A stretch of 50,348 nt of DNA from an uncultured bacterium (GTDB taxonomy: Bacteria > Verrucomicrobiota > Kiritimatiellia > RFP12 > UBA1067): assembly GCA_902769585.1 (NCBI GenBank), contig CACXPT010000055.1, forward strand, positions 1-50,348, in the 5' to 3' direction. Below the pieces are notes generated by a model that was not told where the DNA came from, did no database searches, and saw only the letters and a program-made list of their open reading frames with translations. The position numbers were made by a program, and so were the translations under genes. Positions 6,429 through 31,010 of the stretch are shown here, one piece after another (within the stretch, counting starts at the first letter, position 1; each line of letters starts with the position of its first letter).

Positions 6429-7691
6429 ATGACACTGTTCGAAGAATTCGTGGCGCGCGGCCTCGTGGAGGCCACCACCGATCCCGAGATCGAGAAGATG
6501 CTGGAAACGCCGCAGACCATATACTGCGGCTTCGACCCCTCCGCCTCCAGCCTGCAGGCCGGCAACCTGGTCTCCATCATGATGCTCCGCCGCCTCCAGC
6601 TCGCCGGCCACCACGTCATCGCCCTTGTGGGCGGCGCCACCGGCCTAATCGGCGACCCTTCCGGCAAGAGCGCCGAGCGCAACATGCTCACGCTCGAGCA
6701 GGTCGCCGCCAACAAGGCCGGCATCCGCGAGAACCTCTCGCGCGTCCTTGACTTCGACGGACCCAACGCCGCACGCATGGTGGACAACTACGACTGGTAC
6801 TCCGGACTCTCCGCCATCGCCTTCCTGCGCGACGTGGCGATCAACTTCCGCGTTCCGCAGATGCTCGCGAAGGAGAGCGTCAAGAAGCGCCTCGAAGCCA
6901 GCGAAGGCGCACTCACCTTCACCGAGTTCAGCTACCAGATCCTGCAGGGCAACGACTTCCTCCACCTCTTCGACACCTACGGCTGCACGATGGAGGTAGG
7001 CGGCGCCGACCAGTGGGGCAACATCACCGCCGGCACCGACCTCGTCCACCGCATGCGCGGCAAGACCGCCTACGGCCTCACCTTCCCGCTGCTCCTCGAC
7101 GGAAGCGGAAAGAAGTTCGGCAAGAGCGAGGGCAACGCGATGTTCATGAGCGCGGACAAGACCTCGATCTACGACTGGTACCAGTTCTTCCTCCGCTCCG
7201 ACGACTCAGACGTCATCCGCTACCTGAAGGTGTTCTCCCTCCGTCCCCTCTCCGAGATCGCCGACCTCGAGGCCCAGATGAAGGCCCATCCCGAGGCCCG
7301 CATCCCGCAGAAGGCTCTCGCGGAGGAGCTGACGCGCCTCGTCCACGGCGAAGCCGGACTCCAGACCGCGCTCGGCGCGACGCAGACCCTCTTCGGCGGT
7401 GACGTGTCCGGCAAGAGCGCGGACGAGCTGGAGACGATCTTCAAGGACGTCAAGAGCGCCGCCCTTCCCAAGGCGGACATCGTTGGCAAGCCCGTCTTTG
7501 CAGTGGCCGCCGCCGCAGGGATGTTCAAGTCGAACGGCGAGGCGCGCCGCATGGCCCAGCAGGGAGGACTCTCCATTAACGGAGCGAAGGCCGGTCCCGA
7601 CAGGATCTTCGCCGAGACCGACCTCGTTGACGGCCGCGTCGCCGTCCTTCGCAGCGGCAAGAAGAACCACTTCCTCCTGAAGCTGGCCTGA
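6429..7691 (+). CDS. tyrS: Tyrosine-tRNA ligase
   Basis: Charges tRNA-Tyr. The 420-residue class I synthetase has YCGFDPSASSL, ALVGGATGLIGDPSGKS, the tyrosine-pocket segments SYQILQGNDF and GGADQWGNI, the KMSKS-type loop KKFGKSEGNA, and a C-terminal S4-like domain (SINGAKAGPDRI). The HIGH motif is unusual: residues 43-46 read QAGN where most bacterial TyrRS have HxGH or HxGN, so the first histidine is replaced by glutamine. The ATG at 6429 lacks a clear SD sequence and directly follows the octamer array; transcription probably comes from the trxA promoter. It converges with the next gene, the two stop codons abutting at 7691/7692. Confidence 0.95.
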   Translation: MTLFEEFVARGLVEATTDPEIEKMLETPQTIYCGFDPSASSLQAGNLVSIMMLRRLQLAGHHVIALVGGATGLIGDPSGKSAERNMLTLEQVAANKAGIRENLSRVLDFDGPNAARMVDNYDWYSGLSAIAFLRDVAINFRVPQMLAKESVKKRLEASEGALTFTEFSYQILQGNDFLHLFDTYGCTMEVGGADQWGNITAGTDLVHRMRGKTAYGLTFPLLLDGSGKKFGKSEGNAMFMSADKTSIYDWYQFFLRSDDSDVIRYLKVFSLRPLSEIADLEAQMKAHPEARIPQKALAEELTRLVHGEAGLQTALGATQTLFGGDVSGKSADELETIFKDVKSAALPKADIVGKPVFAVAAAAGMFKSNGEARRMAQQGGLSINGAKAGPDRIFAETDLVDGRVAVLRSGKKNHFLLKLA

Positions 7692-10600
7692 TCAGTCCCC
7701 TTCCACCAGTATCCTGAAGCCGACGTCGTGGACCTTGCGCCACGGACGGTAAAGGACGCGTGACGCGAACGTCGAGTCCTTCGGCCGCGTCCAGCACGAT
7801 CCGCCGCGCGCCACAGCGCGCTGCGACTTGTCTACCTGCGGACCGAACTCCGAAGGCGCAACGCGGTCCGCCGTCCATTCCCACACGTTGCCGTGCACGT
7901 TCCTGAGCCCCCACGCGTTGGGGCCAAAGGCGGAGACGGGCGCGGAGACACGGTAATGGTCGTCATAGCGGATGTCCGCAGGACGCCACGCCGGCACCGC
8001 CATGCCGGGCACGTTCGCGCGGAAGCGGTCCTGGCGGCGGAACGTGACGTCGGCCAGATTTGCGACTTTCGAGAAGTCGGCATCCACATCGCCGTACCAT
8101 AGCGGCGTGGCGGCGCCCGCGCGCGCGGCCCACTCCCATTCACCGCCGGTGGGGAGACGCACCTTCGCTCCGGTGCGGCGCGAAAGCTCGACGCAGAAAG
8201 CGGCTGCCTCGTCGCAAGAGACGCGCACGACCGGCTGGTCAGGCATGTTGAGCGGATAGCCACGCTCCTGCTCGGTGAACTGCATGAACTCGCCGCGCTC
8301 AAGCTTGCTGTCGTGCGTCGGCACGAGACGACGGTACTGCTCGTTCGTGATCTCGTCCACGGACATCCAGAACGACTTTCCTATGACCGTCTTGCCGCCG
8401 GCGGAGTCCGTCATGACGCCCGCAGGAATGCGGGCAAGCGCGATCTTCACGCCGCCGCCAAGGTCGAGATTCCGGCGCGAGGGCGCGCCGGAAACGTTGG
8501 GGGCAATTTCGCAGGAAACGTTTGCGGCGCGCCCCGCGCCGCTTGCTGCCGACGTGTCGCGCGGAAGCGCAGTAGCCTTAATGACGGCGCGGCCGTACGT
8601 CTTCTCGTGATCCTCGACGACGTTTGCGTACCGCTTCTGGAGGTCGGCGCGGCGGGCGGCGAAGTGTGCCACGCGATTGGTGCCCACTGTCTCGCTCCAG
8701 GTGCCGTGGCCCATACGATTCAGGTCGATCCACGTGTTGATGCGGTCCCACGACTCGGCGTCAAGCCGCACGCCGTGGTGGCCAGCCTCCAGCATCTGCA
8801 CGAGCGCGGTCGTGTCCGCCGCAGTCTCGCCCGGCACGAGTACGTCGTTGTCGCCCTCCTGCGTGGCGTTGCGCACGTAGGAACAGAGCGCCATGTACGC
8901 GGGCGGGAACAGCCCGTCGTTGAGGTAGTAGGTCAGCTTCGTCTTGATGCAGACGTCCGGACGGTCGCGGAGATCGGGTTTGCGGACGAGCCCCGGCTCG
9001 ATCACGTCGAGGATATTGGTGGAGTTCCCCTTCCCGTCGTGGCAGGAGACGCAGTAGCGGTCGAGGACCGGCTGCACCTCGCGGCGGAAGTCGAAGCCGC
9101 GTTCGGGGCCGTGCCAAGGCTTGATCTCCGAAGGCTCGCGCTCCATGGCTATCAGGCGGCGGTTCGGCCCGGCGCTCGCCTCGTTCTCCTCGTGGCAACC
9201 ACTGCACGAGGCCAGCTCGCCCGGCATGACGTTCGTCCAGGAACGCATGAGCTGCACGGCGCGCCCGTCGGCATCGAGCGGCTGGAACGCGATGGGCAGA
9301 TTGGCGGGAACCGTGAAGTAGGCGCTGCCGTCGGCCTCCACAGGCACGGTGCCTATGATGCGCTTTATGTCCCACGGACCGTCAAGGCCGTGGTGGTCCG
9401 TTTCGCCGCCCATCCAGCGGTAGGCGAATGAGTAAGTGAGGAGGCGAATCTCCTTGACGGTGCCGCGCGGCACGCCGCGGAGTCCGAGTCCGTCGTAGAT
9501 GTCGGTGACCTTCACTCGGGCGGTAGTGCTTGACGGGGCGACCTTCGACGCGATGGCCGGCGGCTTCTTCGTGGGCTGTAGCGGAATTGGCTCAAAGTAG
9601 GTGAAGTCCGTCTCCTCGATGATCGGAGTGAGGTTGTCGAAGGCATCGACGAGGTAAAGTCCCCAGCCGTCCTTCTCCGTCGGACGCGCCGCCACGATCA
9701 CGTAGTCCTTTGAGAGCGGATAAGGATGGCAGAACTTCGGCCACGAGTAGTCGGCCACGCGATCGCGCACGATGGGCTTGACGGGCTTGCCGCGCTCAGT
9801 GAAACGCTGCACCACGCCCTTCGCCTCCTTGCGGCCCTTGAGCGTGTCGAAGAGGACGAGCTCTCCGTAGCGCGGCTGGCCGTGGTGGCCGGTGACGATT
9901 GCGGTGAACATGTCTGGCGCGTCGGGGCACGGACGCGCGTTGAATAGCGCGTTCGGCCAGTAGGAGTCGCTGCCGTAATAGGCGCGCTGCACGGTGCCGT
10001 CCGGGTTCATGGTGAAGAGTATCCGCGCGACGTAGTGCGTGATGTCCGCATACTCCCAGTGGAGGAACATGACGCGGCCATCAGGCATGAGGTTCACGCA
10101 CCAGTTGTTGTCCTGGTCGAACGTGAGGCGGCGGATCGCGCCGTCCGGCTCGCGGCGGTAGATGCTGGCCACCCAGCTCGACCCCACCACGCACGGCACG
10201 CCCACCATCGAGGCGTCTGAGAGGAAAAGAATCGCGCCGTCGGGCAGATAGCAGCCCGCGTAGCAGTTCACGTCGGCGTCGGGGATGAGCGGTATCTCCG
10301 TCGGACGCGCGCCGGGCGTGCCGATGTCCAGTTCCACCACGCGGTCGCAATCAATCTTCGGCGGGTGGTCGACGCGGTCCGTGCGGCGCGTGTACATCGC
10401 CTTCTTCGCGTCCCACCGAAGGCAGACCTCACCGATGTAGCCGTTGGCCGCAGTGGCGTCCAAGACGGAGAACGACGGCTTGCCTCGTAGGTTGGAGAGT
10501 ACGCCCAGCTCGTTCGTGCAGCCGCCGAAGATGTCGCGCGGCTGCTTCCAGTTGTTGTGGAGGCCGAGGTTGGACTGCCGGCGGCGGATCGCGAGGAGCC

Positions 10601-10934
10601 TGTCGCCGTCGAGGAGCGGGTTCGCGAGGAGATGTGTGCGAAGGTCGTCGAGGAACTTCTGTCCGCCCGCCACAGGCGCCAACTCGCCGTAGAACGGCCC
10701 CCAGTCGCCCTTGATCGAGTCGAGGAGGCGCTGGCGGCGAGCCTCGAACGTGCGCAGCCATTCTGGATCCTTCTCGAAGCGATCTGGCCAGCGTACGCAC
10801 ATGTCCGCCCACACGAGGCGCACGTTCTCCACATTGAGCGCCTCGAGCCGACGTATGACGCGGTCCGTCGGCGACTCGGCGCAGGCGACGCATGCGATTG
10901 CACATGCCAGAATAAAGGTTTGCGTGCCTTTCAT
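7692..10934 (-). CDS. HzsA-like dihaem protein fused to an FGE/SUMF1-like domain
   Basis: A 1080-residue exported protein. Residues 1-20 form a signal peptide (possible cleavage ACA|ES). The middle part resembles the propeller-type domain of hydrazine synthase alpha subunits, with segments such as MNPDGTVQRAYYGSDSYWPN and TGHHGQPRYGELVLFD. Two c-type haem motifs follow: CSGCH near residue 576 and CVSCH near 628. From about 845 the chain becomes a formylglycine-generating-enzyme-like domain (VDEITNEQYRRL, RLPTGGEWEWAARAGA, NVHGNVWEWT, ARGGSCW). The paired catalytic cysteines of true FGE are not evident. HzsA-related proteins are known in planctomycetes and relatives outside anammox; hydrazine synthesis is not implied. 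A periplasmic redox or binding role is inferred. An extended -10 promoter lies 9 nt before the ATG. Confidence 0.75.
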   Translation of the reverse strand: MKGTQTFILACAIACVACAESPTDRVIRRLEALNVENVRLVWADMCVRWPDRFEKDPEWLRTFEARRQRLLDSIKGDWGPFYGELAPVAGGQKFLDDLRTHLLANPLLDGDRLLAIRRRQSNLGLHNNWKQPRDIFGGCTNELGVLSNLRGKPSFSVLDATAANGYIGEVCLRWDAKKAMYTRRTDRVDHPPKIDCDRVVELDIGTPGARPTEIPLIPDADVNCYAGCYLPDGAILFLSDASMVGVPCVVGSSWVASIYRREPDGAIRRLTFDQDNNWCVNLMPDGRVMFLHWEYADITHYVARILFTMNPDGTVQRAYYGSDSYWPNALFNARPCPDAPDMFTAIVTGHHGQPRYGELVLFDTLKGRKEAKGVVQRFTERGKPVKPIVRDRVADYSWPKFCHPYPLSKDYVIVAARPTEKDGWGLYLVDAFDNLTPIIEETDFTYFEPIPLQPTKKPPAIASKVAPSSTTARVKVTDIYDGLGLRGVPRGTVKEIRLLTYSFAYRWMGGETDHHGLDGPWDIKRIIGTVPVEADGSAYFTVPANLPIAFQPLDADGRAVQLMRSWTNVMPGELASCSGCHEENEASAGPNRRLIAMEREPSEIKPWHGPERGFDFRREVQPVLDRYCVSCHDGKGNSTNILDVIEPGLVRKPDLRDRPDVCIKTKLTYYLNDGLFPPAYMALCSYVRNATQEGDNDVLVPGETAADTTALVQMLEAGHHGVRLDAESWDRINTWIDLNRMGHGTWSETVGTNRVAHFAARRADLQKRYANVVEDHEKTYGRAVIKATALPRDTSAASGAGRAANVSCEIAPNVSGAPSRRNLDLGGGVKIALARIPAGVMTDSAGGKTVIGKSFWMSVDEITNEQYRRLVPTHDSKLERGEFMQFTEQERGYPLNMPDQPVVRVSCDEAAAFCVELSRRTGAKVRLPTGGEWEWAARAGAATPLWYGDVDADFSKVANLADVTFRRQDRFRANVPGMAVPAWRPADIRYDDHYRVSAPVSAFGPNAWGLRNVHGNVWEWTADRVAPSEFGPQVDKSQRAVARGGSCWTRPKDSTFASRVLYRPWRKVHDVGFRILVEGD

Positions 10935-10974: not shown

Positions 10975-13900
10975 TTACTTTACCGGTTCGACGGAGAAGT
11001 CGTCCAGGTACCAGGTGCCTTCCTTGCCGTTCGTCATGAAGCCGTTCCATTCGAGAACGCGGAAACCGGTCTGCACCTTGAGTCCGTCCACCGTCACGGG
11101 GTCGCCGCCCGGCGGCGTCACCGTGCACGACCACGTTCCGGCTTTCGGGCCGGTCACGTGCAGCAGGATCTCCACGCGACTCCACTCGTCCACCGGCACA
11201 TCGGCGATCTTGCGGCCGCCCGCCCGCACATGCCCCGCGGCGAAGGTGATCGACGGCCCTACGGCATACGGCCGCGCGCCGTCCTGCCTGTAGTCGCGGC
11301 ACTCGAACTGCGGATGCGCCTTGTCGTCCGTGCGGAAGCTCCAGCGGATGCGCACGCTCCCCTGCTCCGCGCCTATCTTCGCGATGAGGTGCGGCTGCCA
11401 CGGCGCCCCAAGATCTGGACCGTCGGCGAGGCGTAGCGACTTGGTCCCAGAGGCCGCCGTCTTGTCGGTCACGGCCACGCCTCGCTCGCCATGAACCGAA
11501 AATATCCCGATGTTCTTCTTGCCGGCTTTCCCAGCCTTGTACTTCTCAAAGCTGATGCTGCCGCTCGTGCGGTAGCAGCGCGGCGCTGGCGGCGCGTCCT
11601 TGAGCGGCGGATATCGCGTGTCGTCCATCGCCTCCGCGCGCCAGACGGCGTCGTGCTTCAGCACGCCCGCAGCAGTCCAGTCCCACGGCACGAAGCCCAT
11701 CTTCAGAGCGGGCGACTCCTGCTCGAGCCGCCAGTCGCCGTGCAGCGGATCGCGGAACAGCGGATCGCCCACGCGCGAGACGCAGTCGTGCCCATCCGCG
11801 CGCCACGACTCCAGCGGCTTCCCGAAGAAGGCGTTCGACGAGATGCCGCCGGTGCACCAGTAGAGGTTGCCGTCCATCACGAGGTCGGTGACCTTGCCGC
11901 CCTTCACGCCTCCCCTGATGATCTGCGAGGCGGAGTTCGTCCACCAGAACACGTTGTTGGTGACGATGATCGTGGTGTGGTCCTCCACGCGCGAGCGCCA
12001 TACGCCGGAGCGCTCGAACGTTGCGAAGATGTTGTTTGCGAAAGTGTTGTCCTTGCCGTAGTGCTGGTGCACCGCGCCGTCGCGGCAGCGCTCCACCAGG
12101 TTGGACGCGAGCAGGATGCCTGCCGAGCCCTCGTCCGTGTACAGGCCCCACGCTGGCGAGCCCGAGCCCGAATACCCGTTCACGTCGTGGATCCAGTTGC
12201 CGATCTCCACCGTCCCCTCCGAGTTGCCGAGCGTGTACACGCCGCCCATGTCCGAGAGAACGCCCCAACCGATGTGGTGGATGCGGTTCCACATGAGGCG
12301 GTTGCGCTTCGCGACCGTCGGCGCGTAGCCCCACGTCCAGCCCATGGAGACGCCCGTGTAGCGGAAGTCGCCGATGTCGTTGTGGACGATCTCGTTGTCC
12401 GACGCGTGGCCGATCCACACGCCGATCGCGCCGTTGAGCGTGAAGCCGCCAGAGCGGATGATGCTGTTCGACACGCGGTTGAACGCTGTCACGCGCGCCT
12501 CGCCGTCCTGCTTCCACGGCGCCGTGTCGCCAAGGTACACGCCGCCGCCGCCGAGGTCCTCGATCAGGCAGCGGACGATCCGGCATTTGCGGCAGCCGCG
12601 CTTGAGCCACACACCGTGCATGCCGACGTGCGATATGCGGCAGCGCTCCATCGCGAAGCCGTGCACGCCGTCGCCGAGGATTGCGGCGTCATGGACGTTC
12701 TGCGCGCTCTGCGCGTTCCTCACGCCGCCGCCCGGCAGCGTCCACGCGGCATGCTCGAACGCGAGTCCATAGAACTTGACGTTGCGCACGAGCGAGTCGG
12801 ACAGCGGATCGCCGGCAAAGACGACGAACCCCGGCGCAACCGGCGCGACGGCACGCGTACTCTCCACGCGCTCGCCCGCGAGAGGGATGTACAGGAGATC
12901 GCCCGCCTTCACGTCGTGGAACCATTCGCCCGGCGCGTCGAGCGCGCCACGGTAGTTCTCTAGCGCGTAGCGCGGGTACGTGCTGCTCCAGAAGAAGAGC
13001 GGACGCGACGTCCCCTCACTAAGCATCACGAGGCCGGTCTTCGCGTCGATGTGCGCTATGCGGCTGCGGCCCATGTCCCAACTCTGCCAGAGCAGGACCT
13101 CCACGCGGGCGAGCTCGTCGGGCGGCAACGCCGCGAGCGGCGCCATGTCCTCGACGCTTGCCATCATCGCTTTGCGCGAAACGTCCTCAGGCTTGCCCGT
13201 GAGCGGGTTCTCGTCGCCGTCGTACTCGTCGCGCATGTAAAGGTAGAACTCGTTCGGCGTGCGTGCGCGCTGCGCGCGCCGTCCGTTCACGTACAGCTGC
13301 TCGAAAGACAGACCTTCCGGGACGCGCGCGCGCCAGATGCCGTCCGCCCCCGCCCTGAACGGCGGCAGCTCCACGCCGCCGTCGAACACGGACTGGCCCT
13401 CCTTCGCGGCGGCGAAGCGCACGTTGGAGTCGGCCGGCGTAAACGTAGCCGCCTCCTTTACCGGATAGCGGCCGGGCGCGACGGACACCTCGGCGACGCG
13501 GTCAGGCGGGATCGCTCCAGACGCGCGGAGCGCGCGCACCTTCTCGAGCGCCGCCGCGATCGTGCGCACCTCGCCGTCCGGACGCATCGTCACGTCCGCC
13601 GCGGGCATGGTGTCGGTGACGAGCAGGCCCGCGAGATGGCATCCGTAGCCATTGCTCTTCTCGTCCTTTTCGTTCAGGGCCACGACCTCCACCACATGCC
13701 TTCCTGGCTTGTCCCTGCATAGGAAGAGCGCCGGCGTGTACCACCACCACTGGTCGCGGAAGCAGCTGTGACTGCGCACGACGGGCTCGCCGTCGATGGA
13801 CACGTCTATCTTGCCCCAGTTGAACGGCTTGCAGCCGAGGCGGTAGAGTATCGCCACGGTGCTGCCCTCGACCTCGAACACGAGGCGCGAGCCGGCGTTC

Positions 13901-14862
13901 GTGCATGCGAGCCCCTCGCCCCAGCAGTGGTCGCGGAGCGGGAAGAACCCCTTGCTCTCGATCGTCTTCACGTTCGTCATCAGACGGAACTCGCCCTTGT
14001 CGTAGCGCGTGCCGAACAGCGGCGCAGGCAGCGGGGAGATCGCGGCAGGTGCGCGGCCGGACGCCTTCCACTCGAGGTACTTGCGCGACAGGTAGCGGTT
14101 GAGCAGCGCGGCGGCGTACGCATGGCCGATGTCGTTGGGATGGACCGTGTCCGGCGAGAGGTCGGACCACTTGATCGTCCCTTCCTTCACGTACGGGTAG
14201 AACAGCGCGTCGCGCCAGCTCACGTGCGGCAGGTTGTAGTGGCGGGCGACCTTGGCGTGCCACTCCTGCGCGTTGTTCCCGCTCTCTCCAACCATCCCGA
14301 GAAGCATCACCGCGATATTGCCCGGCGCTTTGAGAAGCTGCCGCACGACTCCCTCGTACGATTCGGCGCGATCGCGCGTGTTGGGGTCGTTGACGTCGAA
14401 CTCCACCACCACCACGTCAGGCTTCTTGTCGAGCACGTCGCGCTGCAGGCGGAACGCGCCGATGTCACTGCCGGTCGCCCCGATGCCCGCGTTGACGAAA
14501 TCTATCTTGGCTTTCGGGAACGCCCTGCGCCATCCCGCGCAGAACGTCTCGCCCCAGCGCCTGTCGGGCTTAGACGCGCCCGCGCCCTGCGTGATGGACC
14601 CGCCGATGACGGCGATCCTCACGGGCTGGCCGCGATCAAGCCGCGCCCAAACGTGCTCGAACCTCGCGAAGTCGCCCGCCACGTGGACGCTCCTCGGCCC
14701 TGTCACGTCGAGCGGCGGCACCTCGGCTCCGCTCGCGAGCCGCGTGGCGGGAAGCGTCCCCACCCACGATTCGGCCATCGCGGCGTTCGCGTCGGCCAGC
14801 AGGCACGGAGCGCACGCTAGCGCGGCACCGAGCAAGAGGAACCTTGCGTTGAGTTCTTTCAT
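10975..14862 (-). CDS. Secreted SGNH esterase plus right-handed beta-helix protein
   Basis: A 1295-residue exported protein. Residues 1-23 are a signal peptide. An SGNH/GDSL hydrolase domain follows: block I AVIGGSITQGAGAS with the nucleophilic serine, block III VEFDVND, block V DTVHPNDIGHAYAA. The middle part is a right-handed parallel beta-helix of the pectate-lyase-like class, with many asparagine-containing turns (AILGDGVHGFAMERCRISHV, NEIVHNDIGDFRYTG). The C-terminal 200 residues look like a concanavalin-A-type jelly roll. Likely substrate: an acetylated plant or algal polysaccharide (inferred). I chose the ATG at 14862 for its AAGGAG ribosome site and signal peptide; an ATG at 14886 overlaps the permease stop as ATGA. 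The open frame continues to 15624, but that part is a shadow of the permease. Confidence 0.8.
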   Translation of the reverse strand: MKELNARFLLLGAALACAPCLLADANAAMAESWVGTLPATRLASGAEVPPLDVTGPRSVHVAGDFARFEHVWARLDRGQPVRIAVIGGSITQGAGASKPDRRWGETFCAGWRRAFPKAKIDFVNAGIGATGSDIGAFRLQRDVLDKKPDVVVVEFDVNDPNTRDRAESYEGVVRQLLKAPGNIAVMLLGMVGESGNNAQEWHAKVARHYNLPHVSWRDALFYPYVKEGTIKWSDLSPDTVHPNDIGHAYAAALLNRYLSRKYLEWKASGRAPAAISPLPAPLFGTRYDKGEFRLMTNVKTIESKGFFPLRDHCWGEGLACTNAGSRLVFEVEGSTVAILYRLGCKPFNWGKIDVSIDGEPVVRSHSCFRDQWWWYTPALFLCRDKPGRHVVEVVALNEKDEKSNGYGCHLAGLLVTDTMPAADVTMRPDGEVRTIAAALEKVRALRASGAIPPDRVAEVSVAPGRYPVKEAATFTPADSNVRFAAAKEGQSVFDGGVELPPFRAGADGIWRARVPEGLSFEQLYVNGRRAQRARTPNEFYLYMRDEYDGDENPLTGKPEDVSRKAMMASVEDMAPLAALPPDELARVEVLLWQSWDMGRSRIAHIDAKTGLVMLSEGTSRPLFFWSSTYPRYALENYRGALDAPGEWFHDVKAGDLLYIPLAGERVESTRAVAPVAPGFVVFAGDPLSDSLVRNVKFYGLAFEHAAWTLPGGGVRNAQSAQNVHDAAILGDGVHGFAMERCRISHVGMHGVWLKRGCRKCRIVRCLIEDLGGGGVYLGDTAPWKQDGEARVTAFNRVSNSIIRSGGFTLNGAIGVWIGHASDNEIVHNDIGDFRYTGVSMGWTWGYAPTVAKRNRLMWNRIHHIGWGVLSDMGGVYTLGNSEGTVEIGNWIHDVNGYSGSGSPAWGLYTDEGSAGILLASNLVERCRDGAVHQHYGKDNTFANNIFATFERSGVWRSRVEDHTTIIVTNNVFWWTNSASQIIRGGVKGGKVTDLVMDGNLYWCTGGISSNAFFGKPLESWRADGHDCVSRVGDPLFRDPLHGDWRLEQESPALKMGFVPWDWTAAGVLKHDAVWRAEAMDDTRYPPLKDAPPAPRCYRTSGSISFEKYKAGKAGKKNIGIFSVHGERGVAVTDKTAASGTKSLRLADGPDLGAPWQPHLIAKIGAEQGSVRIRWSFRTDDKAHPQFECRDYRQDGARPYAVGPSITFAAGHVRAGGRKIADVPVDEWSRVEILLHVTGPKAGTWSCTVTPPGGDPVTVDGLKVQTGFRVLEWNGFMTNGKEGTWYLDDFSVEPVK

Positions 14863-15842: not shown

Positions 15843-15878
15843 ATTCTACCACAAATCGTCCGCATCCTGTGGTATAAT
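15843..15878. promoter_or_regulatory. Divergent extended -10 promoters (permease / DUF362)
   Basis: Two -10 boxes face away from each other within 36 bp: TAGAAT on the minus strand (15848-15843) and TATAAT on the plus strand (15873-15878). Each is preceded by TGTGG, giving an inverted repeat ATTCTACCACA N14 TGTGGTATAAT. The boxes are too close for independent -35 elements, so recognition must rest on the extended -10. Confidence 0.6.
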
Positions 15879-15909
15879 GTTCGCATCTGCAACCCGAAGG
15901 GAGAAAAAG

Positions 15910-16842
15910 ATGAAGCGCGAAACGAGAAAAGAGACCAAGCCGGCACGCACGATCAAGCGGCGCACGTTCATCAAGACGGGCGCGGCGGCGGTCGCCGGGG
16001 CCGCGGCACTGCCGGGCGCTTCGCTTGCGGCCGAGCCGCAGGCGACGGTCGTGGTCGTCCACGGTACCGACATCCCGAAGATGGTCGAGGCCGGCATGGC
16101 GAAGATGGGCGGATGGGACAAGTTCTTCAAGCCCGGCTGCAAGGTGGCGCTCAAGCCCAACCTCGCTTGGAACTCGACTCCCGAGCAGGGCGGGAACACG
16201 CATCCCGACATCCTTCGCGCATTCATCCTCGCGGCCGAGGCCCGCAAGGTGAAGCAGGTCACCATCCCGGAGAACACCTGCCATCCGGAGAAGAAGACAT
16301 TCGTGGCGAGCGGCGCGCTCGACGCGATCAAGGGCACGATCGCGAAGCTCTACCGTCCGAAGCCGGCCGACTACAAGGCCGTCTCAGTGCCCAAGGGCAA
16401 GACCTGCCAGGAGGCAAGGGTGTCGCGCGACCTCCTCGAGGCCGACTGCCTAATCAACATGCCCGTAGCCAAGCACCACGGAGGCGCCACGCTCTCCCTC
16501 TCCATGAAGAACTGGATGGGCGCCATCGACAACAGCTCCCGCCGCACGTGGCACAGGGACGGCCTCCACCAGTGCATCGCGGACTTCAGCACGTTCCTCA
16601 AGCCACACCTCATCGTGATCGACGCCACGCGCATCATGCTCGACCACGGCCCGCAGGGTCCCGGCAAGCTGGCGCATCCGCACGAGATCATCTTCGCGAC
16701 AGACCCTGTCGCCGCCGACACATACGCGGCATCGCTCTTCAAGAAGACTCCCAAGGACGTGCCGCACATCAGCATCGCCGCCGAACTCGGCGTTGGATGC
16801 GCCGACCTTGCGAAGATCAAGGTCGAACGCGTCGAGGCGTAG
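15910..16842 (+). CDS. Tat-exported DUF362 protein
   Basis: A 310-residue DUF362-family protein of unknown reaction; the family is often tied to Fe-S or redox partners. The N terminus carries a twin-arginine signal (IKRRTFIKTGAAAVAG, residues 15-30). DUF362 signatures include VALKPNLAWN, NMPVAKHHGGATLSLSMKNW and a conserved histidine-rich stretch near TWHRDGLHQ. It lacks its own ferredoxin domain; the next gene, 9 nt downstream, encodes an 8Fe-type membrane polyferredoxin, so the pair may act together at the membrane. The ATG at 15910 has AAGGGAG upstream; an in-frame ATG at 15877 lies inside the -10 box and is excluded. Confidence 0.85.
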   Translation: MKRETRKETKPARTIKRRTFIKTGAAAVAGAAALPGASLAAEPQATVVVVHGTDIPKMVEAGMAKMGGWDKFFKPGCKVALKPNLAWNSTPEQGGNTHPDILRAFILAAEARKVKQVTIPENTCHPEKKTFVASGALDAIKGTIAKLYRPKPADYKAVSVPKGKTCQEARVSRDLLEADCLINMPVAKHHGGATLSLSMKNWMGAIDNSSRRTWHRDGLHQCIADFSTFLKPHLIVIDATRIMLDHGPQGPGKLAHPHEIIFATDPVAADTYAASLFKKTPKDVPHISIAAELGVGCADLAKIKVERVEA

Positions 16843-16851
16843 GAGGCATCC

Positions 16852-18072
16852 ATGAAGTGGCTGCGCCGCAACGTCTGGCGACTGCTGATCGCGGCAGGAG
16901 CCGCGGTCCTCGCGCTGGGCTACGTTCCCGAATCCCATCCCGAGCTCGGTTCGATCCTGCCGCGCATCAGCCCGATACTCAGCCTCTTCGGCGCGCTGGC
17001 CGCGCGCGCCTGGCTCGGCTGGCTGATGTTGCTGGGGATACCCCTCCTCGTGCTGTCGTTCTTCAAGGGACGCTTCTTCTGCTGGCACCTCTGCCCGATG
17101 GGATTCCTCTCGGAGACCGCCGGGCGGCTGAACCCGTGGGGAAAGGGACTCGTCAAACGCGTGCCGCCGATCAACAAGGTCGTCGCGCTCGTCATCGCCG
17201 TCACGGCCGCATGCGGCTATCCGCTACTCATCTGGCTCGACCCGCTCTGCATCTTCAACGGCTTCTTCGCCGTCTGGCGCGAGCCGTTCACGTGGGCCGC
17301 CGCCACCACGGGCATCGGGTTCGTCGCGATCCTCGTGCTTAGCATGATCGTCCCCAACGTCTGGTGCCATAGGGTCTGTCCCCTCGGCGGGCTGCTGGAG
17401 TCCATCATGCTCCTCGCGCGCCGGCTCCGCCAGCCGAAAGCCGAAGCCCCTGCGCCGTCGTCCCTCTCTGCCGCCGCCGCCACGCGCCGCACCGTGCTCG
17501 CGGCGATCCCGGCCGCAGCCGCCGGCATCGTCGTGAAGCGCGCGTTCGGGCCAAACGGATGCAAGGCGATCCGTCCGCCGGGCGCCGACCTCGCGCGGAT
17601 CAACGCGCTGTGCGCACGCTGCGGCAACTGCATGAGGGCCTGTCCCTACCAGCTGATCCAGCCCAACCTCGGCGAAAGCGGGATCGACGGACTGTTCACC
17701 CCCGCCCTTCGCCTGCGCAGCCGCAACATCGAGCAGGAACAGTACTGCTTCCAGGACTGCGTCGCCTGCACGCAGGTGTGCCCCACAGGCGCGCTGCGGC
17801 CGCTCACGGTGGAGGAGAAGCACGCCACCCCGATCGGCCTTGCGGTCATCGACCGCAAGAAGTGCATCGCGTGGGAGAAGAAGGAATACTGCGCGGTATG
17901 CGACGAGTACTGTCCCTACAAGGCCGTCAAGCTAGTGGAGCGCAACGGAGTCAACTGCCCGATAGTGGACGCGGACAAGTGCCGCGGCTGCGGAGCGTGC
18001 GAGAGCAACTGCCCCGCCGACCCCATCGCCATCGTCGTCAAGCCCCTCGCGCCCGGTCATCGTTCCGCATGA
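16852..18072 (+). CDS. Membrane polyferredoxin, NapH/NosR-like with C-terminal 4Fe-4S clusters
   Basis: Electron-transfer protein of 406 residues. The N-terminal half has four to five membrane segments and two CxxxCP motifs (FCWHLCP near residue 77 and WCHRVCP near 177), as in NapH. A hydrophobic helix (residues 210-230) leads into a polyferredoxin region with CARCGNCMRACP, CVACTQVCP, CAVCDEYCP and CRGCGACESNCP, enough cysteines for about four [4Fe-4S] clusters. The arrangement resembles a NapH-NapG fusion. An AGGAGG ribosome site precedes the ATG. With the DUF362 protein it may pass quinol electrons to an exported partner (inferred). No nitrate reductase genes are nearby, so a nap function is not implied. 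Confidence 0.85.
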   Translation: MKWLRRNVWRLLIAAGAAVLALGYVPESHPELGSILPRISPILSLFGALAARAWLGWLMLLGIPLLVLSFFKGRFFCWHLCPMGFLSETAGRLNPWGKGLVKRVPPINKVVALVIAVTAACGYPLLIWLDPLCIFNGFFAVWREPFTWAAATTGIGFVAILVLSMIVPNVWCHRVCPLGGLLESIMLLARRLRQPKAEAPAPSSLSAAAATRRTVLAAIPAAAAGIVVKRAFGPNGCKAIRPPGADLARINALCARCGNCMRACPYQLIQPNLGESGIDGLFTPALRLRSRNIEQEQYCFQDCVACTQVCPTGALRPLTVEEKHATPIGLAVIDRKKCIAWEKKEYCAVCDEYCPYKAVKLVERNGVNCPIVDADKCRGCGACESNCPADPIAIVVKPLAPGHRSA

Positions 18073-20020: not shown

Positions 20021-20114
20021 AGTGCCTAGTGCTTAGTGCCTAGTGCGGACTTTGCAGACCAAACATTGGCGCGGAAGCAACGCACCAAGCACCAAGCACT
20101 AGGCACTAGGCACC
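20021..20114. repeat. Inverted heptamer arrays between tRNA-Ser and the enolase-like gene
   Basis: A direct array of GTGCCTA/GTGCTTA units (20021-20046) is followed 35 nt later by its complement, CACCAAG/CACTAGG units (20081-20114). RNA from either strand could fold into a hairpin with a loop of about 35 nt. The right arm begins exactly at the TAG stop of the minus-strand gene. Confidence 0.8.
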
Positions 20115-21488
20115 AACCACCAGCCGTCCGTACATCGCCTCGTAGCGAGGCATAGGCTCCAGGATGCCGCCGCTCTTCTTCCAGTAGTCGGCATCCAGCT
20201 CGAACACGCCTCTCTCCGTGCGAGTCCAGTGAGCTGTCTCGTAGGCTAGATCCTTGCGCATGGTCTCCCAGTTGCGGAAGTTCTGGTGGCCGTTCGTCTC
20301 CACGAGGCCGAGGTCGCCGAGGCCAGGGAACGCCGGCAGGCGCGCCGCCACGGCCTTGTTCCACTCCACCATCGCCGGGCACACGGTCAGGTCGGCGCAG
20401 AAGCACGGCACGTCCTTCTCGAACGCCGCCTGCGCGATCTTCATGCTCATGGACATCGTCTTCGCGATGGGCTTCAGCGCCATCGCTCGGTAGCCCATCT
20501 GGATGCGCTCGAGCGCATCCTTCACCGTGTGTGCGCTCTCGTCCGCCGCCAGCCGCAGCGGGATGTCGGAGACGTCGATGTCGGCGTGCTCGTCGAACGG
20601 CTCCTCTATTATCGCCACCTGCTCGTATGCGCCGATCTTCTTGAGGTGGTCGATGAACCTGAGGAGCGTCTCCTTCTTCTCGTAGCGACCGTTCGCGTCG
20701 AAGTAGTAGGGAAGCTTGCCCGTCTTCGTGTAGGGCGTGCGGCAGTCCTTCAGCGTCGCATGGATCTGCGAGACGCGGGCCATGTCCTTCGCGAGCATCT
20801 CCTCCTGCGTGCCGGGCTGGCCGATCTTGATCTTCATGAAGAAGTAGCCGGAGTCGACGGCCGCCTTGATCTCGTCCATCGACGCGCACTTCGCGTGGCG
20901 CGCCGCGAGCGCCGGACGGTACTCCGGCGGGATCATTGAGTCGAAGTCAGTAAAGCCGTTCTCGCGCGCGAAGAGCACCCATGCCGCGTTGTCGACGGCA
21001 ACAAGCGCGTTCAGCGCGAACGTCGCGCGGAGGTCATCGCGGCAAGCGACCTTCTTCCCGTACTCCAAAACCTGCGGCCACAGCGCCTCGTTCAGCTCAA
21101 CGGGCGTGACGAAGCTCATCCCCTTCGCGAGGTTCAGCGCGTGCTGCGTCATCGCGAACATGATCGCGTTGCCGCCCGCCTCGGCGTTCGCGGCGAATAC
21201 GGCCGCGTCGCTCCAGAGGACGCTCTGCGTGCCTAGTCCGATGCCGTGCTTGCCGGAGGTCGAGCGCAGGCAGGCCGAGACGATCCACTCCTCGGTGAGG
21301 TATCCGCCCTTGAAGCCGAACGGACGCACCATCGGCTCGCGCTCGAAACCGCACGCCGCCGACTCGATCGTGATGCGCTTCAAGGGACGGCACGCCGTGC
21401 CGCCGCACGCCTGGGCCGACGCCCCCTTCCCGATCGCCGCCGCCGTCCCGGCCGCCGCCGCCAACTTCAGAAACTCGCGCCTCTCCAT
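20106..21488 (-). CDS. Tat-exported enolase-superfamily protein
   Basis: A 460-residue member of the mandelate racemase/muconate lactonizing branch. Residues 1-25 form a twin-arginine signal (ERREFLKLAAAAG). The barrel carries the expected metal-ligand strands: FDANGRY (Asp), AIIEEPFDEH (Glu) and RLAADESAHT (Asp/Glu), plus the FFMKIKIGQ lysine motif before them and a lysine in MALKPIAK. Such proteins dehydrate, epimerise or cycloisomerise sugar acids or dipeptides; the substrate cannot be read here. Export of an enolase-superfamily enzyme is unusual but common among PVC paralogues. The ATG at 21488 has a GGAAGG ribosome site; a TTG two codons earlier is rejected. The final codons GGT GCC TAG merge into the repeat array. 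Confidence 0.82.
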   Translation of the reverse strand: MERREFLKLAAAAGTAAAIGKGASAQACGGTACRPLKRITIESAACGFEREPMVRPFGFKGGYLTEEWIVSACLRSTSGKHGIGLGTQSVLWSDAAVFAANAEAGGNAIMFAMTQHALNLAKGMSFVTPVELNEALWPQVLEYGKKVACRDDLRATFALNALVAVDNAAWVLFARENGFTDFDSMIPPEYRPALAARHAKCASMDEIKAAVDSGYFFMKIKIGQPGTQEEMLAKDMARVSQIHATLKDCRTPYTKTGKLPYYFDANGRYEKKETLLRFIDHLKKIGAYEQVAIIEEPFDEHADIDVSDIPLRLAADESAHTVKDALERIQMGYRAMALKPIAKTMSMSMKIAQAAFEKDVPCFCADLTVCPAMVEWNKAVAARLPAFPGLGDLGLVETNGHQNFRNWETMRKDLAYETAHWTRTERGVFELDADYWKKSGGILEPMPRYEAMYGRLVVGA

Positions 21489-21529
21489 CCTCAACCTTCC
21501 TTTCCTATAACTTCTTTCTGATTTCTCAC

Positions 21530-29698: not shown

Positions 29699-29707
29699 AG
29701 CGGCGAT

Positions 29708-29797
29708 CGAAGCATCAGGAAGCGGCCGCCCGTTGCGGCCGCGCCAACCGAGCGGCGACGCCACGGTGGTGCGGGACAATCCCCCGGATGCGCTTCG
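29708..29797 (+). promoter_or_regulatory. Structured leader of metK, candidate riboswitch
   Basis: A closing stem pairs CGAAGCATC (29708-29716) with GATGCGCTTCG (29787-29797, two bulged bases). Inside are a perfect 8-bp hairpin (GCGGCCGC at 29722-29729 and 29735-29742, loop CCGTT), the linker GCCAACC, a short CCA/TGG hairpin and GGG-ACAAT-CCC (29773-29783). The element starts right after the predicted transcription start and ends 13 nt before the first metK ATG. It lacks the P3 layout of SAM-I and does not match SAM-II or SAM-III as I remember them. Confidence 0.4.
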
Positions 29798-29828
29798 CAA
29801 GTACGAAGAAATGGAAAGTGACAAGAAA

Positions 29829-31010
29829 ATGACGAAACATGCCGGACGGCACGTTTTCACTTCCGAGTCGGTCTCGGAAGGACACCCCGACAAAGTGGCA
29901 GACCAGATCTCGGACGCCGTGCTGGACGCCTGCCTCGCCAAGGACTCCCGCGCCCACGTGGCCTGCGAGACCATGTGCGGGCCAGGACTAGTGGTCAACA
30001 TGGGCGAGATCGCCTGCAAGGGGTTCGACACGATCAACACGCAGGAGATCGCCCGCCGCGTGGTGAAGGACATCGGCTATGACCGACCCGCCGAGGGCTT
30101 CAGCTGGGACACGTTCAACTACGTGAGCGCGCTCCACGGCCAGAGTCCCGACATCGCGCAGGGCGTGAACCGCAAGCAGGCCGAGAAGCAGGGCGCCGGC
30201 GACCAAGGGATGATGTTCGGCTACGCGACGAACGAGACCCCCTCGCTCATGCCCGCGCCGATCATGTACTCCCACGAGCTGCTGGTCCTCTTCGCGCGCC
30301 TGCGCAAGACGGGCAAGCTCCCGTTCCTGCGCCCCGACTCCAAGAGCCAGCTCTCCATCGCGTACGAGAACGGACGCCCCGTCTCAATCGAGACGGTCGT
30401 CGTCTCGCACCAGACGACCGAGGCCGGCGCCAACAAGAAGGCTTACGCGCAGATCGAGGAAGTCGCCCGCGCCTTCCTGGCCAAGACGAAGCTCCTCACG
30501 AACCGCACGCGCTTCTACATCAACCCCACCGGCAAGTTCGTCGTCGGCGGTCCCACTGGCGACAGTGGCCTCACCGGGCGCAAGATCATCGTCGACACCT
30601 ACGGCGGCATGGCCGCCCACGGCGGCGGTGCATTCTCCGGCAAGGATCCATCGAAGGTCGACCGCAGCGCCGCCTACTACGCGCGCTACGCCGCCAAGAA
30701 CATCGTCGCTGCCGGCTTCGCCGACCGCTGCCAGATCCAGGTGGCCTACGCCATCGGCGTGGACAAGCCCGTCTCCATCTGCGTCAAGACGTTCGGCACG
30801 AACCACGGCGTCACCAACGAACAGATCGAGAAGCTGCTCCTCTCCGGCAAGGTGTTCGACTTCCGCCCGTACGCGTTGATCAAGGACCTCAAGCTGACCA
30901 CGCCCAAGGGCTGGTGCTACCGCGACACAGCGTCCTACGGCCACTTCGGCCGCAGCGCGTTCCCGTGGGAGAAGACGGACAAGGTCGCCGCCCTCAAGGC
31001 GTCGCTGTAG
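29829..31010 (+). CDS. metK: S-adenosylmethionine synthase
   Basis: Makes SAM from methionine and ATP. The 393-residue protein contains [20 protein letters not shown], the [12 protein letters not shown] loop (GAGDQG), the P-loop-like [18 protein letters not shown], and the C-terminal ASYGHFGR. All substrate-binding motifs are intact. The start is uncertain: ATG at 29829 ([14 protein letters not shown]) fits the family N terminus best, ATG at 29811 ([10 protein letters not shown]) is six codons earlier and closer to the leader structure. Transcription should begin near 29705. A block of repeats and a weak hairpin follow the stop. Confidence 0.96.

Follow-up and report, generated by a model that had tools for sequence, protein, structure and literature searches.

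A hydrazine synthase alpha-like di-haem protein fused to an FGE-like domain in an uncultured Kiritimatiellia bacterium and its relatives

Contig CACXPT010000055.1 of an uncultured Kiritimatiellia bacterium, the whole 50,348-nt stretch (positions 1–50,348) that is called the window here, contains a gene at positions 7692–10934 whose product appears, from sequence comparisons and a structural model, to be an exported two-haem c-type cytochrome. It is homologous along its length to HzsA, the alpha subunit of hydrazine synthase (HZS), and carries in addition a domain of the formylglycine-generating enzyme (FGE) type. We put at roughly even the chance that this protein is the alpha subunit of an HZS-type haem redox complex that would act on another, perhaps glycan-linked, substrate. 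The protein family is widespread and, judged from its residues, most likely catalyses a reaction other than hydrazine synthesis.

Domain architecture and predicted structure

The gene is a single open reading frame (ORF) from ATG to stop, and its features are listed in Table 1. Apart from the HZS_alpha domain, Pfam recognized the FGE-sulfatase domain PF03781 at residues 849–1075, far over the cut-off (E = 6.1e-32). With phmmer, chain A of the Kuenenia structure 5C2V (HzsA) was matched in two stretches, the first of which ends at the first CxxCH motif, while the second spans the second motif. A profile of 15 relatives, comprising three fused proteins and 12 unfused paralogues from the source genome (L032 and L036–L039 were excluded as truncated or divergent), matched the same chain with an E value of 1.2e-40 at profile positions 145–572 and 594–707, that is, over most of the length of HzsA. 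The AlphaFold2 model, for which 55 fused sequences were the input, had a mean pLDDT of 86.4 and a pTM of 0.88. Foldseek ranked 5C2V first for this model (E about 1e-24), and HzsA was also the top match of VIA-align (Z 31.5, root-mean-square deviation 3.0, 558 residues, model residues 109–752). Thus, the relationship to HzsA and the presence of two CxxCH motifs and a C-terminal SUMF1-type domain in one chain, both claimed in an earlier sequence-only reading of this DNA, were confirmed, the former also by the structure prediction that this reading had proposed as a check.

Table 1. Positions of the features discussed in the text (window coordinates unless a locus is named; A3 and A4 are the alignments described below).
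Feature	Location	Strand	Basis
HzsA-like di-c-haem protein fused to FGE-like domain, 1080 aa	7692..10934	-	ORF, Pfam, phmmer, model, structural matches
Signal-peptide-like N-terminus, about residues 1–19, cut near ACA/ES	10878..10934	-	Read by eye; orthologue starts similar
Beta-propeller part, residues 109–455	9570..10610	-	Model; TolB structural rows about 102–455
HZS_alpha middle domain (PF18582), residues 491–582	9189..9464	-	Pfam, E 2.6e-31, far over cut-off
Cys248	10191..10193	-	55/55 A3, 14/15 A4; position not Cys in HzsA (profile alignment)
His351	9882..9884	-	55/55 A3, 15/15 A4; Met in HzsA (profile alignment)
CxxCH 1, residues 577–581, place of haem alphaI	9192..9206	-	phmmer alignment with 5C2V; invariant, 55/55 A3
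CxxCH 2, residues 628–632, place of haem alphaII	9039..9053	-	phmmer and profile alignment with 5C2V; invariant, 55/55 A3
His719-His720, candidate distal ligand of haem alphaII	8775..8780	-	Alignments A3, A4 and profile
FGE-like domain, residues 816–1079, without Cu-binding Cys pair	7698..8489	-	Pfam and structural matches
Upstream neighbour: GDSL esterase and GH141-like beta-helix protein	10975..14721	-	Pfam
Beta-gamma-like, chorismatase/RidA-like and system-II maturase genes together	L193 5248–9763; L194 3112–7649; L106 3472–13727		Relatives of the window genome and a Bacteroidota genome

Haem sites and conserved residues

Residues were counted in alignment A3, which contains 55 fused sequences (the window protein, 14 proteins of the same genus, family or order, and 40 of 80 scanned loci, with partial and broken sequences dropped), and in the 15-row alignment A4. 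HzsA numbering was fixed by setting His587 as chain position 560. Because both CxxCH motifs are found in all 55 fused relatives, they are not chance occurrences. Both c-haem attachment sites of HzsA, alphaI and alphaII, are present, and covalent haem is predicted at each of them. The sequence-only reading had remarked that only two haem sites are seen; the count stands, but not its sense of a deficit, because HzsA itself carries two (PMC12758564).

In HzsA, Tyr591 is a ligand of haem alphaI, Cys303 binds zinc, and His772 is the distal ligand of haem alphaII (PMC12758564; PMC12607021). His772 aligns with His720, which is conserved in 45 of the 55 sequences and is the neighbour of the invariant His719 (55/55 in A3, 14/15 in A4); the two histidines are candidates for this ligand. 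Tyr591 has no counterpart in the window protein, and 54 of the 55 sequences lack a Tyr within eight residues past the first CxxCH motif; the sole Tyr, in L070, occupies the third place, not the fourth. The profile alignment likewise has no Cys at the place of Cys303, a residue that is itself absent from some anammox bacteria (PMC12758564). Conversely, Cys248 and His351, both invariant among the fused proteins, are absent from HzsA by the profile alignment.

The maturation of haem c was also considered, as the sequence-only reading had suggested. A single frame on contig C101 of the source genome (4.9 Mb in 365 contigs, 79% complete and 5% contaminated) encodes both ResB and CcsA, that is, a system-II haem-c maturase, and the objection that the genome might lack such a system consequently fails. 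Two sequence marks of a c-type cytochrome are thus present, the CxxCH motifs of the protein and the maturase genes of the organism.

The FGE-like domain

The best structural matches of the FGE-like part in VIA-align were TvpA (2Y3C, Z 27.8), PvdO (5HHA, Z 27.4), PorK (Z 24.0) and FGE (Z about 23). The domain thus has the fold common to FGE/SUMF1, PvdO, PorK/GldK and TvpA (Z 21 to 28), in agreement with its Pfam match. It differs in its fusion to a haem protein and in the absence of the Cu-binding Cys pair, and the genome contains only one sulfatase match. At the places that correspond to the pair of human FGE, none of the 55 sequences has both Cys residues (first Cys 0/55, second 10/55), so that the absence of the pair noted from the sequence alone holds for the whole alignment. 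PvdO also lacks the pair in the alignment made here. Many residues of the domain are nevertheless invariant among the fused relatives. The single sulfatase match speaks against a formylglycine role, and activation of sulfatases by this domain was rejected on this ground and on that of the missing Cys pair.

Alpha-like paralogues and a beta-gamma homologue in the source genome

Altogether, 19 alpha-like proteins were collected from the source genome, of which 18 match HZS_alpha; in two, the FGE-like domain is part of the same ORF. Two CxxCH motifs are present in 16 of the 19. Of the rest, L032 and L037 are truncated at contig ends, and L039 (contig C19 of G000, 8379–10880) has none and is perhaps haem-free. 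In a further paralogue, L024 (contig C192 of G000, 6575–10091), the ORF of the alpha-like part is overlapped at its downstream end by a second ORF that encodes the FGE-like part; this may be a real gene split or an assembly error.

The same genome encodes one fused homologue of the HZS beta and gamma subunits (C45:9223–11043). It matches CCP_MauG above the cut-off and has two CxxCH motifs 108 residues apart, in common with MauG and bacterial di-haem peroxidases, from which it differs by an N-terminal propeller; any peroxidase role is putative. Similar proteins occur next to fused alpha genes. In eight of 50 fused loci (those among L089–L142 whose protein has at least two CxxCH motifs), a propeller protein whose two CxxCH motifs are separated by about 110 residues is encoded within 6 kb, one of the eight being cut off. 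A seven-member profile of these neighbours matched chain B of 5C2V, HZS beta, with an E value of 3.2e-40 and chain C, HZS gamma, with 1.4e-35; its very best match was a surface-layer propeller protein (E = 4.8e-54).

To describe the co-occurrence of alpha and beta-gamma, Fisher tests that ignore phylogeny were used. Among 40 near relatives, 23 have both, four alpha alone, one beta-gamma alone (G022) and 12 neither (4e-6). The corresponding counts for 116 genomes of the class are 28, 3, 1 (G121) and 84 (2e-22), the alpha-alone genomes being G030, with two matches, and G133 and G134, each with a single, weaker match; for 69 genera they are 14, 2, 0 and 53 (8e-13). In the class sample, the number of HZS_alpha matches per genome ranges from 1 to 36, that of beta-gamma matches from 1 to 3. 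Of the 37 listed beta-gamma matches, at least 14 lie no more than 5 kb from a listed HZS_alpha match, and they are spread over at least 12 of the 29 genomes with beta-gamma (one further fragment was excluded, and some of the listed matches are fragments). The components can even be joined in one frame: a 3111-aa ORF of a Verrucomicrobia record (L135, 4917–14252) contains alpha, FGE, PKD domains and beta-gamma, with passenger-type repeats ahead, and alpha and beta-gamma share a 3114-aa frame in G125:C36.

Linked genes in relatives

In Parabacteroides massiliensis (L106), a whole CcsBA gene lies directly behind the alpha-FGE gene; on a second Bacteroidales contig (L107), the CcsBA gene at this place is cut off. 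The gene order in L193 and L194 is beta-gamma, a chorismatase/RidA-like gene, ResB and CcsA (Table 1). The chorismatase/RidA-like gene stands beside beta-gamma in seven of 20 fetched loci, and also in L106 and L138; it is present in 26 of the 40 near relatives, 23 of which are among the 24 that have beta-gamma, and the source genome is included (C15). That the chorismatase-like enzyme supplies a quinone precursor is a guess. A cluster of an FGGY kinase, a DeoC-type aldolase, a short-chain dehydrogenase (SDR) and SMP-30 lies beside the alpha-FGE gene in few loci (L094, L115, L116, L127), too rarely for a substrate to be assigned from it, and this assignment was rejected.

Distribution of the alpha-FGE fusions

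The scan of a genome collection yielded at least 80 loci, with phyla assigned by record title, and fused proteins were found in Kiritimatiellae, Lentisphaerae, Planctomycetota, Verrucomicrobia, Hydrogenedentes, Armatimonadetes and Bacteroidota. In a quick tree of 76 alpha sequences, built without bootstrap and without anammox HzsA, the fused ones fall into one clade of 58 rows (SH-like approximate likelihood ratio test 100). The two rows inside it that are labelled unfused are the split L024 and L032, which is cut by a contig end. The closest row with a name is a Kiritimatiellae record, which places the source organism probably among the Kiritimatiellota. By the tree, the alpha-FGE fusions thus form one clade across at least six phyla. 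Both Pfam domains are present in all 38 scanned fused relatives from outside the genus; F5/8 type C domains are added in seven of them and NPCBM domains in six, and L185 carries PA14. The carbohydrate-binding-type domains of some relatives point to glycans, if only indirectly. In Bacteroides faecichinchillae (L130, 7050–11040), the alpha-FGE gene is split into three ORFs.

Proposed function and alternative explanations

In the arrangement that we infer, CcsBA would load the haems, and the alpha-like subunit would belong to an HZS-type complex, where its partner would be the MauG/peroxidase-like beta-gamma protein; a single beta-gamma core might serve several interchangeable alpha subunits. The peroxidase-like gamma site would make or use a small reactive species, which haem alphaI would apply to the held substrate; redox chemistry would take place at alphaI, and alphaII would be the point of entry or exit of electrons. 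The FGE-like domain, in some relatives together with sugar-binding-type modules, would hold the substrate, which is probably a glycan or a product of glycan breakdown. A broader version of this proposal is tentative and, in our view, rather doubtful: a combinatorial HZS-type system for extracellular glycan redox, in which one MauG/peroxidase-like beta-gamma core would be combined with many interchangeable alphas (up to 36 matches per genome), part of them equipped with FGE-like and carbohydrate-binding modules, and of which anammox HZS would be a specialised offshoot from an older, broader family.

Several observations weigh against a complex with beta-gamma. The window gene has neither a beta-gamma nor a ccs neighbour in the window, and the putative partner lies on another contig; 42 of the 50 fused loci have no beta-gamma gene within 6 kb, many of them being cut by contig ends; alpha occurs without beta-gamma in four of the 40 near relatives (G005, G012, G030, G036); and one beta-gamma protein would need to serve about 19 alphas. 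In view of this ratio and of the distant partner, many alphas may act alone, and the alpha-like proteins, that of the window included, might be stand-alone exported di-haem oxidoreductases or electron carriers that have left the HZS-type complex, the co-occurrence with beta-gamma reflecting a shared need for haem-c maturation. The distribution over genera, the repeated adjacency of the two genes and the single alpha-FGE-beta-gamma ORF argue against this explanation, which we regard as unlikely, though to be taken seriously. The proposed link to glycans is likewise weakened, because the alpha genes of the source genome are enriched neither beside Gfo/Idh genes (4/19 within 5 kb, P 0.23) nor beside 3-keto-disaccharide hydrolase genes (2/19 within 5 kb, P 0.16). 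With co-localisation no better than chance, a sugar-oxidation cluster (Gfo/Idh/MocA, 3-keto-disaccharide hydrolase) around the alpha genes was rejected, and the periplasmic oxidase step on sugars or proteins that the sequence-only reading had suggested found no support.

Alternatively, the FGE-like domain might itself be catalytic in the manner of PvdO, with the haem part as its electron acceptor. Its many invariant residues and the position of PvdO, which shares the lack of the Cys pair, among the top structural matches would fit; however, the pair is missing in all 55 sequences, TvpA and PorK, which are not known to be enzymes, match too, and most paralogues in the genome lack the domain. 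We consider this distinctly improbable. An even slimmer chance is given to a structural or sensing propeller-lectin scaffold with vestigial haem, to which the binding-type domains added in some relatives and the paralogue without CxxCH (L039) would correspond, but not the invariance of both CxxCH motifs and His719 in all 55 sequences, nor the linkage to maturase genes in several genomes. Least probable is that a bacterium without anammox has here a true hydrazine synthase or an enzyme of the nitrogen cycle. All three HZS subunits do have homologues in the genome, but counterparts of Tyr591 and Cys303 are absent, about 19 alpha copies are present, and the match to the NCBIfam equivalog hydrazine_alpha is below the cut-off (44.8 versus 800 bits). 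Without the tyrosine at alphaI and the cysteine that binds zinc, the protein is not expected to yield hydrazine, and hydrazine synthesis by it is very unlikely. The earlier suggestion that the haem part serves something other than anammox is thus upheld.

Comparison with hydrazine synthase and published homologues

The window protein shares with HzsA of Kuenenia (5C2V) the propeller, the HZS_alpha domain, two c-haem sites, a histidine near the place of His772 and a beta-gamma homologue in the genome. Apart from the residues discussed above, it differs in its extra C-terminal FGE-like domain, its many paralogues and a beta-gamma gene outside the same operon. Genes similar to hzs in organisms other than anammox bacteria have already been published, as has the notion of a wider enzyme family (PMC10732223; PMC12758564); like the genes described here, they encode a homologue of HzsA, in many cases next to a fused beta-gamma homologue, and have lost key HZS residues. 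Haem alphaII is missing from clades II and III of PMC12758564, and His772 from clade I. The main text of PMC12758564 contains no mention of formylglycine, Kiritimat- or Verrucomicrob-. In a literature search that covered few subscription papers, no paper joined hydrazine synthase or HzsA with Kiritimatiell-, whereas one (PMC6194347) mentions both hydrazine synthase and formylglycine. Within the same scope, nothing was found on the FGE fusion clade, on the radiation of alphas beside a single beta-gamma, on the links to CcsBA and to the chorismatase-like gene, or on the fusion in a single ORF. The Pfam domains are already catalogued, so that the novelty lies in how these known parts are combined.

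Hydrazine synthase has hitherto been regarded as almost exclusive to anammox. A large protein family with this architecture, in organisms from which anammox is not expected, would show the role of the scaffold before or besides hydrazine, and its natural variants could be used to probe the roles of haem alphaI and of its odd tyrosine ligand. If the alphas do act on glycans, they would represent a new redox entry to polysaccharide breakdown.

Other genes in the window

A conserved operon with the GDSL/GH141-like upstream neighbour was rejected; among the fetched orthologue loci, this neighbour is kept only in G003 (about 95% identical). Elsewhere in the window, a Tat-signal DUF362 protein is followed by a membrane polyferredoxin-type protein (15877–18072, plus strand), and an enolase-superfamily protein (MR_MLE C-terminal; 20106–21494, minus strand) has a Tat signal match under the Pfam cut-off and is perhaps exported. 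A SAM-I/IV riboswitch over the gathering score (29707–29825, plus strand) adjoins the ORF at 29733–31010.

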